Assembly (NCBI RefSeq): GCF_023276355.1
Contig: NZ_JALLPL010000001.1
Span: 496,001-560,000, forward strand
Source of the DNA: Haloplanus sp. XH21
Lineage (GTDB): Archaea; Halobacteriota; Halobacteria; Halobacteriales; Haloferacaceae
Direction of reading: 5' to 3'
Length of the DNA stretch: 64,000 nucleotides
The notes beneath the pieces were generated by a model. That model was not told the DNA's origin. It did no database searches and saw only the letters and a program-made list of their open reading frames with translations. A program made the translations under genes and the position numbers. Numbering within the stretch: position 1 is the first letter of the stretch; the number at the start of each line of letters is the position of its first letter. This document shows, piece by piece, positions 46,345 through 52,167 of this stretch.

Positions 46345-48624
46345 CTAGTCGTCCGCGAGCGCCAGCGCCGCCAGCATCGCCTCGAGTTGGACCCGCTCGT
46401 TCGCGCCCTCCGTGATGCGGTAGTCGGCCTCGCCGAGGCGTTCCATCAGGCGGACGGTGCGGCGCTCGTCGATGTCGAACTCCCAGGCCGAGCGGTGGAG
46501 CTGGTCGATGACATCGCCGCCGGCCATCCCGGAGTCGACCAAGAGCGTCTCGAGCGTCGACCGCGCCCGCTGGAAGTCGCCTTCGATGGCGGCCTCGACC
46601 ATCGACTCGACCTCCTCAGGGCGGGCGGTGCTGGTGACCATGTACACCGCCTCGTCGTCGACGGTGTCGCCCGTCGTCGCGGCCGCCTGAAGCGTGTTGA
46701 TCGCCCGCCGCATGTCGCCACCGGCGGCGTACACGAGGGCGTCGAGGCCGTCGTCGGTCATCTCGATGCCCTCGGTTTCGGCGATCTCCCGAACCTGCGC
46801 CGCGATGGCGTCGTCGGACAGCGGCGAGAATCGGAAGACGGCACACCGCGACTGGATCGGGTCGATGATGCGACTCGAGTAGTTACACGAGAGGATGAAG
46901 CGGGTGTTGTCGGAGAACTGCTCCATCGTGCGTCGGAGCGCTGACTGGGCGTCCGAAGTGTTGTGGGTCAGAATCCCGTTAGCGAGCATGAAGTTCGGCG
47001 TCCCCTCCATGCTGATGTTGTAGGCTTTCCCGCGGTGGCTGTACCCGATGCGGTTGATGCCCACGGTTCGAACCGCTTGTTTGCCACCGTCCGAAAGGAC
47101 TGAGGGCTCGAACTCCGATCGCTCGGAGTGTTCGTGATGGGGGAGGTCACCGTCACCGATGACGACGAAGGTGTATTCGTCACCGTACGTTTCCAGGAAC
47201 TCTTCTACCTTCTCCGTCTGTCCCCACAGTGCGGCGACTCCTTTGACTTCGATTACCGTATCGCCGAGCAAGAAGTCGGGGTGGTACACCGAGTCGGAGA
47301 GTTCGAACGACGGTTCGTACTCGTATTCGATATCCGCGTCCTGTAACGCCTTCCCGACTTCGTACTCCCAGTCTGACCGAACGAGGTGGCCGAGTTCCTC
47401 GCTGTGTCTGACGTTGCCACCGGTCGGCTCGTGGCCTTTTAGAGCATCCGAAACTTTCTGTGCGACTTCGGGGTCGCGCATCGGATTGTTGTCGCCACTG
47501 ATATCACAGACGGGATAGTCACAGTTCTCGACGCTCTTTTCGATGATAGCTGCCTTCTCATCGTCGTCCAGAGCGGCCCACCATTCGGCCGAAGCGGTCC
47601 CGATGTCTTCTTTCACTCTGTCGGGGTCGGCGTCGACGACCCACTCCTCCCACGGAGTTCCGGACCGCATCTCGCTGATCGTTTCACGGACCCGCTCGAC
47701 CGTCTCCTCGTCCATCTCCCAGGCGTTGACTCCGTGGAACTCTCCGCCGTAGTTCGGATTGTCTTCGCCTGCAAACCGCCCATCCGAGAGTTTCTCGACG
47801 ATCTTGCTTCGCCGCTCATCCGACCACGTTGTCCCGTGCATCGGATTCTTCTCGCCGCGCATCTCGCGGCTGTGTCCCTCATTCTTGCAGTCGACGGAAC
47901 AGAACTGACCTGCAGTCCAGGCGTCGCAGATGTCACACTGCGACACACCGATATCATCTTTGAAATCCGCGATCTCGTCACCGGGGGAGAGTTCCCAGAG
48001 TTCTTTTTCAACGAGGACCCCGTTCTCGTCGACGACGAAGAACGGGTGGGTCAGGCTTGCCAGAATCGTCCGTCCATCCTCCAGTTCGATTTCGAAGAAG
48101 TCCGCAACACCGGAATCCACGAGTGTTCCCTTGTCGGACTGTATCTCGTTCGTCTCGAAATCGACAGATGGGATCGGCTCACCGTCCCGTTTCACCTCCT
48201 CGATCGGCTTCACTTCCGGTTTCGATGGATATCCCGTAACCACCTCGGTCCCTGGCGGCACGCACAACGAGTCTGCCTCGTCGAGAAATATAATGCGGTA
48301 GTCGTAGCCGCCGAACGCGGACCGGGCGAAGTTCTTGATCCGGTCGCGCACTACGTCGATGCCGCGCTCGTCGGAGGCGTTGAGTTCGAGGAAGTTGCCC
48401 CGCCAGTCGTCGCCGTACATTTCACGGGCGATAGCCGTGGAACAAGTGGTTTTTCCCACGCCTGCAGGCCCTGAAAATAAAAGGTGCGGCAGGTCGTCGC
48501 GCTCGATGTAGCTCTGCAGGCGGTCGACGATGTCCTCCTGTCCCTTCACGTCGTCGAGGGTCTGCGGGCGATACTTCTCGATCCATATCTCGCGTCCCGC
48601 GGACGACCCCTCGTCCTCGCTCAT
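46345..48624 (-). CDS. rfcS: Replication factor C small subunit with intein
   Basis: The clamp-loader subunit places PCNA on primed DNA. Starting at ATG 48624, the precursor has 759 residues; removing a 435-residue intein leaves 324, the normal RfcS size. The extein shows the RFC box WIEKYRPQTLDDV, Walker A GPAGVGKTT, Walker B FLDEADSL, the SRC box SRIIDPIQSRCAVFRF, and the C-terminal collar domain. The intein occupies residues 121-555, directly after DEADSL in Walker B. The gene is divergent from the SAMP2-GNAT gene. Confidence 0.97.
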   Translation of the reverse strand: MSEDEGSSAGREIWIEKYRPQTLDDVKGQEDIVDRLQSYIERDDLPHLLFSGPAGVGKTTCSTAIAREMYGDDWRGNFLELNASDERGIDVVRDRIKNFARSAFGGYDYRIIFLDEADSLCVPPGTEVVTGYPSKPEVKPIEEVKRDGEPIPSVDFETNEIQSDKGTLVDSGVADFFEIELEDGRTILASLTHPFFVVDENGVLVEKELWELSPGDEIADFKDDIGVSQCDICDAWTAGQFCSVDCKNEGHSREMRGEKNPMHGTTWSDERRSKIVEKLSDGRFAGEDNPNYGGEFHGVNAWEMDEETVERVRETISEMRSGTPWEEWVVDADPDRVKEDIGTASAEWWAALDDDEKAAIIEKSVENCDYPVCDISGDNNPMRDPEVAQKVSDALKGHEPTGGNVRHSEELGHLVRSDWEYEVGKALQDADIEYEYEPSFELSDSVYHPDFLLGDTVIEVKGVAALWGQTEKVEEFLETYGDEYTFVVIGDGDLPHHEHSERSEFEPSVLSDGGKQAVRTVGINRIGYSHRGKAYNISMEGTPNFMLANGILTHNTSDAQSALRRTMEQFSDNTRFILSCNYSSRIIDPIQSRCAVFRFSPLSDDAIAAQVREIAETEGIEMTDDGLDALVYAAGGDMRRAINTLQAAATTGDTVDDEAVYMVTSTARPEEVESMVEAAIEGDFQRARSTLETLLVDSGMAGGDVIDQLHRSAWEFDIDERRTVRLMERLGEADYRITEGANERVQLEAMLAALALADD
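46960..48264 (-). other. RfcS intein (435 residues) with NUMOD3 repeats and PD-(D/E)XK-like nuclease
   Basis: The intein starts CVPPGTEVVTGYPSKPEVKP and ends NGILTHN before Thr. Block B is ILASLTHPFF. No LAGLIDADG motif exists. Instead there are a Cys cluster (CDICDAWTAGQFCSVDC, intein 110-126), NUMOD3-like GEKNPMHG, GEDNPNYGG and GDNNPMRDP repeats, and a nuclease-like core: WEYEVGKAL (E300), YHPDF (D330) and VIEVKG (E339, K341). This resembles Vsr/PD-(D/E)XK homing nucleases. Confidence 0.9.
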
Positions 48625-48707
48625 ACCGAATATAGGGGGTGGTCCGCACATAAACTCCCCGAGACGGGACCCGAACGTTCAGGGCGATCCACCCCCTTCA
48701 TCCGTCC

Positions 48708-49307
48708 ATGCCGACGGTACGCACCGAGGTGGTCGGGGAGGGCGTCGAGGAAGTTTCCCTCGACGCCGAGGCCACCTACGGCGACCTGCTCACGGCCCTG
48801 GGATTCAGCGCCCACGAGGCGGCGGTCATCGTCGACGGATCGCCAGTACCCGAGGACCGACGGATCGGCGCCGAGACGGACGAGGTGCGCGTCCTCCGTC
48901 TGGTCAAGGGCGGCAGCGACGCGGCCGGCGTCACCGTCCGTCCCGCCGACGACGACGACCATCTCGACGTGATGCGCGTCGTCGACGGCGCGGTGCTGGC
49001 GGCCGACGGCGAGACGGTGCGGGCGCGCATCGACGACGGCGAGGTACTGGTGGCGACGGCCGACGGAAGCGTGGTCGGCGCACTCGTCCACGACGACGGC
49101 CACGTAACGGCGGTTGCGGTGCGGCGACGCCGCCGCAGTCAGGGTATCGGCACCGCGCTCGTGATGGCGGCGCTCGACCGACAGGAGACGCTCACCGCCG
49201 ACTTCGACCCCGGTGTGCGACCCTTCTACGAGTCGCTGGGGTTCGATATCGAGGCGGAGGGCGACGGGGACCGCCTCCACGGACAGCGCGAACGACGTGA
49301 CCCCTAA
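48708..49307 (+). CDS. SAMP2-like ubiquitin-fold domain fused to GNAT acetyltransferase
   Basis: Residues 1-69 match the small archaeal modifier SAMP2: VSLDAEATYGDLLTALGFSA, VIVDGSPVPEDRRI and VRVLRLVKGG ending in the conjugation Gly-Gly (68-69). Instead of stopping, the frame continues with a GNAT domain (about 75-199) bearing the acetyl-CoA loop RRRRSQGIGTALV and a closing FYESLGFDIE. Free SAMP2 needs an exposed Gly-Gly for activation by UbaA, so a processing step after residue 69 would be required, or the domain serves only as an adaptor. No internal stop or frameshift is seen. Confidence 0.9.
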   Translation: MPTVRTEVVGEGVEEVSLDAEATYGDLLTALGFSAHEAAVIVDGSPVPEDRRIGAETDEVRVLRLVKGGSDAAGVTVRPADDDDHLDVMRVVDGAVLAADGETVRARIDDGEVLVATADGSVVGALVHDDGHVTAVAVRRRRRSQGIGTALVMAALDRQETLTADFDPGVRPFYESLGFDIEAEGDGDRLHGQRERRDP

Positions 49308-51767: not shown

Positions 51768-52031
51768 CTACGCGTCGTCGGCGTTCGTCTCCGCGTCGGC
51801 GACGAGTCGTTCTTTGGCCCGTCGCGAGAGGGATTTGATCTCGTGTTCCCGGCTCATCGCCGCCGAACGAGTCTCGTAGCGTTCGGTGTAGCGGAGTTCG
51901 ACCGGGGTCCGCCCGCGGGTGTATTTCGCCCCCTCGCCGGCGTCGTGTTCCGCCACGCGTCGCTCGACGTCGGTCGTATAGCCCGTGTAGTAGGTACCGT
52001 CGCGACATTCGAGGATGTAGACGTAGTGCAT
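51768..52031 (-). CDS. GIY-YIG nuclease-domain protein, UPF0213/YhbQ-like
   Basis: From ATG 52031 the product has 87 residues, the usual size for this family. It begins HYVYILECRDGTYYTGYTTD, which includes the G-Y/Y-I-G-type active site, an Arg (VERRVAEH) and KYTRGRTPVELRYTERYETR with the catalytic Glu region. Stand-alone members act on DNA or RNA in repair or turnover. An in-frame extension to 52070 looks non-coding. Confidence 0.9.
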   Translation of the reverse strand: MHYVYILECRDGTYYTGYTTDVERRVAEHDAGEGAKYTRGRTPVELRYTERYETRSAAMSREHEIKSLSRRAKERLVADAETNADDA

Positions 52032-52167
52032 TGGTGGGGTGGGGGAGTCCCGGGCGGATAAGCGTTCCACACGCGCCGATCGCGTTGGGGACTGGCCGCG
52101 GTATCGGTGGGGTCACGCGGCGGGCGTGGACGGCGGCTTCGCGTGGTGATCGAACGGCGCTGCGGCG

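Follow-up and report, generated by a model that had tools for sequence, protein, structure and literature searches.

Is the SAMP2 of Haloplanus a ubiquitin-like modifier that is released by proteolysis from a longer precursor, or has it become a built-in domain of an acetyltransferase? The question is raised by a gene in the window, which is a stretch of 64,000 nucleotides from Haloplanus sp. XH21, where one open frame encodes SAMP2 and continues past its Gly-Gly into a GNAT acetyltransferase (Table 1). The SAMP2 gene of Haloferax ends with a free Gly-Gly, and the removal of tags is regarded as the main task of the JAMM protease. A free C-terminal glycine is needed for E1 activation. In a SAMP2, the Gly-Gly is the encoded C-terminus; here 130 more residues follow, and the Gly-Gly would become a C-terminus only if the protein is processed. 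The product is therefore named a SAMP2–GNAT fusion rather than SAMP2. Residues beyond an encoded Gly-Gly are the mark of ubiquitin-like (Ubl) precursors of the CsUb-pre/MoaX type, and the fusion has such residues.

Table 1. Positions in the window of the fused gene, its parts and its divergent neighbor.
Feature	Position	Strand	Description
SAMP2–GNAT fusion gene	48708..49307	+	199 aa, ATG to TAA, uninterrupted frame
SAMP2 ubiquitin-like domain, ends LVKGG	48708..48914	+	Residues 1–69; PF21965, NF041919, PDB 2l32
RLVKGG tail	48897..48914	+	Residues 64–69; cleavage predicted after Gly69
Linker SDAAG	48915..48929	+	Length and sequence differ among species
GNAT acetyltransferase domain	48930..49304	+	Residues 75–199; acetyl-CoA loop RSQGIG; PF13673, PF13508 and PF00583 pass cut-offs
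rfcS with intein	46345..48651	−	ORF; divergent neighbor of samp2; marker of the conserved rfcS–samp2–gnat order

The original prediction, of a SAMP2-like fold in frame with a complete GNAT domain and with the boundary at LVKGG, proved correct by profiles, by the known structure and by the codons at the junction. PF21965 (SAMP2) covers residues 4–66 (E = 1e-21; 77.5 bits against a cut-off of 27), NF041919 (SAMP2) scores the fusion at 87 bits (cut-off 70), and the structure of Haloferax SAMP2 (2l32) is aligned by phmmer through its final Gly-Gly (5e-16). The beta-grasp domain closes with the conserved diglycine, with LVKGG at residues 65–69. The two glycines are encoded by GGC GGC (codons 68 and 69), and AGC follows as codon 70, where many relatives have a stop codon. 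The GNAT families PF13673 (6.3e-11) and PF13508 (1e-9) match residues 102–180, and PF00583 (1.7e-7) also matches the GNAT part. The acetyl-CoA loop (Q/RxxGxG/A) is kept, as RSQGIG here and as RxRGVG or RGQGVG in relatives, and with this loop retained the GNAT half is probably an active enzyme. WD-40 repeat proteins among the PDB matches were discarded as weak, repeated matches to a low-complexity stretch.

The structure predicted by AlphaFold2 on a 12-sequence alignment (mean pLDDT 82) has beta-grasp elements followed by GNAT elements, and pLDDT falls below 50 only at residues 67–71, which is the predicted cleavage region. A Foldseek search of the PDB returned GNAT matches, the best of which was Thermoplasma Ard1 (4pv6; E = 3.4e-8). 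In this model, the product would consist of two folded domains with a flexible stretch centered on the Gly-Gly, and at a pTM of 0.60 the model does not define how the two lie with respect to each other.

The search covered 392 genomes of the order and then 12 genomes of Haloplanus, and all 12 Haloplanus genomes carry the SAMP2–GNAT fusion. The linkers are about 5–15 residues long and differ in sequence, yet the frame is kept in every case. Because the same fusion recurs in 12 genomes at only 63–68% protein identity, a sequencing error, a frameshift or a missed stop is ruled out as its cause; a stop or frameshift after codon 69, which would have left two ordinary genes, is absent, the junction being free of stop codons throughout. 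Each Haloplanus genome has a single SAMP2 above the PF21965 cut-off, and this is always the fused gene. Thus, no second, free SAMP2 was found above that cut-off in any of the 12 genomes, including that of strain XH21; matches below the cut-off are limited to one each in three of these genomes (16–20 bits).

Elsewhere in the order, samp2 normally ends at or near the Gly-Gly, and the GNAT is encoded by a gene of its own that comes next. In other Haloferacaceae (Haloferax, Halegenticoccus, Halogranum, and others), samp2 stops at the Gly-Gly or a few residues further on, and a GNAT frame lies next to it, often in a different reading frame. Among 74 samp2 loci, rfcS was found upstream in 48 (strict motif) and GNAT downstream in 47 (crude motif). 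Haloferax volcanii SAMP2 (HVO_0202; 2l32, 4hrs) belongs to the same family and has the same LRL(V/I)KGG tail, and in its loci, as in those of Haloplanus, samp2 is preceded by rfcS and followed by a GNAT-encoding frame; however, it terminates at the Gly-Gly, whereas the Haloplanus frame runs on. The side-by-side arrangement of samp2 and GNAT in Halobacteria (arCOG00535–arCOG04721) is given in Table 1 of Makarova and Koonin (2010; PMC2948915). The two genes are the same as those of the Haloplanus fusion, but are listed there as neighbors and not as a single polypeptide. The simplest history would be that the samp2 stop codon was lost in the Haloplanus ancestor, merging the gene pair.

Two further SAMP2–GNAT frames, which occur in distant families and in single genomes (G013, L042:965-1573, with LIAGG followed by SVEIR; G032, L043:986-1642, with LSGG followed by LSSKP), were not counted as established independent fusions, since the assemblies are incomplete and congeners have a stop at the junction. 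They may be either independent fusions or assembly errors. As for the neighborhood in the window, rfcS is apparently split by an intein, which by eye begins CVPPGTEV and finishes ILTHNT; within it, a NUMOD3-like segment and a stretch like a restriction-type nuclease (YHPDFLLGDTVIEVKG) can be recognized, whereas a LAGLIDADG motif is not obvious by eye. On the other side of the fusion, positions 51768–52070 (minus strand) encode a small GIY-YIG-type protein (MHYVYILECRDGTYYTGYT...), which is ordinary-looking by eye.

Selection at the junction was assessed in the alignment of the 12 Haloplanus fusions, using Nei–Gojobori proportions averaged over 66 pairs. The pN/pS ratio is 0.45 for SAMP2 residues 1–63, 0.045 for RLVKGG, 0.95 for the linker (an approximate value, as its columns align poorly), and 0.46 for GNAT, the contrast being that of a six-codon tail in 12 sequences that share descent. 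Lys67, Gly68, and Gly69 are invariant in the 12 species, and the alignment is variable from column 70 on, so that constraint changes sharply at the junction between the Gly-Gly and the linker. Of the 157 gap-free stretches of six columns, only five equal the tail in invariance; two of these cover the tail, and the other three cover the GNAT motif FYESLG. Judged from these sequences, the contrast between tail and linker is what a precursor would predict, and a permanently fused beta-grasp domain would have no evident need of a Gly-Gly. The Gly-Gly could nevertheless persist for non-covalent contacts (with UbaA or NcsA) or by constraint on the fused form, and constraint on both domains is also expected if they are functional only while fused.

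The enzymes that would handle a released SAMP2 are encoded in the same genome, each above its NCBIfam equivalog cut-off, namely UbaA (NF047750, 524 bits; cut-off 450), NcsA (NF047749, 640 bits; cut-off 500), and a desampylase of the haloarchaeal family (NF041370, 196.9 bits; cut-off 130; L076:1447-1881, minus strand), whose JAMM residues are HSHPESDPVPSATD. All 12 Haloplanus genomes have both Prok-JAB and the NcsA-type PP-loop family, although in one incomplete assembly (G396) the stronger of the two JAB matches usually seen is missing. In Haloferax, NcsA is required for thiolated tRNA-Lys(UUU), and the ΔncsA and Δsamp2 mutants alike fail to grow at 50°C, the latter after passage; in addition, HvJAMM1 hydrolyzes both the isopeptide and the linear links of SAMP1–3 (PMC4048286).

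Taken comparatively, an invariant Gly-Gly tail beside a free linker, the lack of any other SAMP2 above the cut-off in Haloplanus, and the genes for UbaA, NcsA, and desampylase favor proteolytic release over a built-in domain. SAMP2–GNAT would then be a modifier precursor, derived from samp2 and GNAT neighbors that were joined in the Haloplanus ancestor. We infer that a protease, most likely the JAMM desampylase of the genome, cuts after Gly69, and that the GNAT, beginning at Ser70, is released to work alone. The freed SAMP2, ending in VKGG, would be activated by UbaA for sampylation and, with NcsA, for tRNA thiolation. That the fusion is processed in some way, as a precursor, is quite probable. 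The assignment of this role to the desampylase is less certain, though still rather likely, and a different protease could be responsible instead.

Known precursors and fusions resemble the Haloplanus protein in different respects. In Caldiarchaeum subterraneum, ubiquitin and SAMP precursors are cut by CsRpn11 and CsJAMM, of which CsJAMM cleaves the CsSAMP precursors (PMC6043591). These are likewise archaeal modifiers with residues after the Gly-Gly that are cut by JAMM proteases, but CsUb has a short tail of nine residues, whereas that of Haloplanus is a folded enzyme (PMC6043591). The cleavage site of mycobacterial MoaX lies between Gly82 and Ser83, and this Gly–Ser junction is the one predicted for the Haloplanus fusion (PMC4326299). 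In an engineered linear SAMP1–MoaE fusion, HvJAMM1 cuts exactly after the Gly-Gly, and complementation in vivo is obtained only with jamm1 (PMC4443979). In both MoaX and SAMP1–MoaE, the Ubl is N-terminal to an enzyme, as in Haloplanus (PMC4326299, PMC4443979); however, their partner is MoaE, the sulfur acceptor of the Ubl itself, and their Ubl is of the MoaD/SAMP1 type, whereas the Haloplanus fusion links a Ubl of the SAMP2 type to an acetyltransferase. In eukaryotic UBA52 and RPS27A, the modifier is also the N-terminal half of an unrelated protein, but the Ubl family and the proteases are different and the partner is a ribosomal protein.

The SAMP1–MoaE example also bears on the timing of cleavage, since the uncut protein is inactive until HvJAMM1 acts (PMC4443979). 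Processing in Haloplanus might similarly be slow or regulated, with the fused portion serving as a store of inactive modifier and of an acetyltransferase that is inactive or retargeted, until the desampylase releases both under stress. The same enzymes are encoded in the genome of strain XH21, and this possibility, which is unlikely in its specific form, overlaps with the precursor reading and refines it.

In a permanent fusion, by contrast, SAMP2 would be a targeting or regulatory domain of GNAT that binds UbaA, NcsA, or sampylated partners and is never conjugated. Ubl domains that stay fused permanently are a known general type, the SAMP2–GNAT fusion has become fixed in Haloplanus, and the two domains are under similar, ordinary constraint; however, within the SAMP2 region constraint is strongest on the Gly-Gly tail, next to a linker that is free, and NcsA is retained, yet the genomes have no second SAMP2 above the cut-off to serve NcsA-dependent thiolation. 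A role of this kind has been suggested for the uncleaved ubiquitin–eS31 fusion of Giardia, which, unlike the Haloplanus protein, lost the Gly once cleavage stopped (PMC11354881). A permanent fusion is therefore rather improbable.

Translation might also yield two proteins, by an internal start for GNAT together with programmed termination of SAMP2 at the junction. An in-frame GTG is found in or near the linker in six of the 12 Haloplanus species, but no ATG, GTG, or TTG lies between the Gly-Gly and the first GNAT helix in six, including the present one. Separate translation of GNAT was accordingly rejected for the present species and five others, the other six remaining candidates; given that the junction lacks a stop codon in all 12, this explanation as a whole is very improbable. 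Least credible is a relic, in which SAMP2 function has been lost in Haloplanus and the domain hitch-hikes on GNAT: the blocked C-terminus is the sole point in its favor, whereas pN/pS values of 0.45 for SAMP2 and 0.045 for the tail, in species only 63–68% identical, and the retention of the partner enzymes stand against it.

Residues after the Gly-Gly occur more widely in haloarchaea. A scan of the 392 genomes for the SAMP2-type end V-x-R-L-x-K-G-G, with the next codon beginning with a letter other than T, gave 44 genomes from 10 genera, which is a lower bound for SAMP2 genes that extend past the Gly-Gly. Translation revealed three kinds of extended SAMP2, namely the Haloplanus GNAT fusion, a peroxiredoxin-like fusion in Halorussus, and short tails. 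In 16 of 18 sampled Halorussus genomes (L086–L089, L091–L102), SAMP2 is fused in frame, directly after KGG, to an AhpC/TSA peroxiredoxin-like protein (PF00578, 2.9e-18), which is unrelated to GNAT; in one Halorussus species (G082, L090) the two are still encoded separately. The Halorussus protein is a separate fusion with a different partner, and it counts in favor of the precursor reading. Short SAMP2 tails of 2–11 residues occur in many genera (SR, GR, RWD, ATDPGA, TGTGDSP, APCPHEDTVE, RSAHED; L056, L103–L110, L116–L126, L189).

Other modifiers are extended as well. In Haloplanus, SAMP1 has 1–5 residues after VSGG and SAMP3 has one residue after VAGG, each in nine of 10 genomes (L063, L150, L152–L169 for the two together), and with these tails all three Haloplanus modifiers look like precursors. 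For the SAMP3-type end FPPV(A/S)GG, searched as an exact pattern in 79 Haloferacaceae genomes, the next codon is a sense codon in 37 and a stop in 25. Several extended FPPVAGG modifiers run on for about 100–135 residues; this added part includes the block YRGISRRLA and ends in another Gly-Gly, as KAMRAGG (extended SAMP3-type loci L230, L235–L239, L244–L246, L255–L258). This extension resembles the TBP-like Gly-Gly protein arCOG06308, which is found beside MoaD-like genes, and the whole is possibly a tandem of two Gly-Gly proteins. Because residues after the Gly-Gly are recurrent, the existence of a general maturation protease in these archaea is likely, on the strength of these gene comparisons, and the Haloplanus fusion is less isolated than it first seemed.

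The initial view that such a protein is unusual for archaeal modifiers is thus only partly correct: residues after the Gly-Gly are fairly common in Halobacteria, and SAMP and ubiquitin precursors are known in Caldiarchaeum (PMC6043591). In the open-access literature (subscription papers and preprints being outside the scope of the search), no report of a native SAMP2 fusion to GNAT or to peroxiredoxin was found; SAMP2, GNAT, their neighborhood, and the JAMM-dependent maturation of archaeal precursors were already known.

Haloplanus would be without a working SAMP2 unless the protein is cut at the Gly-Gly, and maturation would therefore be a required step. If there is no cleavage, Haloplanus has lost free SAMP2 but kept NcsA, which would cast doubt on the function in tRNA thiolation that is now accepted for SAMP2. 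If the precursor reading is true, haloarchaea would have the precursor logic of eukaryotic ubiquitin with other partners, an acetyltransferase and a peroxiredoxin, and the fusion would offer a handle on why a GNAT gene adjoins samp2 across Halobacteria. More broadly, the Haloplanus SAMP2–GNAT and Halorussus SAMP2–peroxiredoxin fusions, the Haloferacaceae SAMP3-type proteins with a double Gly-Gly, and the short tails raise the possibility, plausible but short of probable, that haloarchaea commonly make their modifiers as precursors or fusions. On that view, sampylation and tRNA thiolation would both depend on maturation by the desampylase, and the proteins fused to the modifiers would link acetylation and redox functions to the supply of modifier, in a manner comparable to that of the ubiquitin–ribosomal protein fusions.
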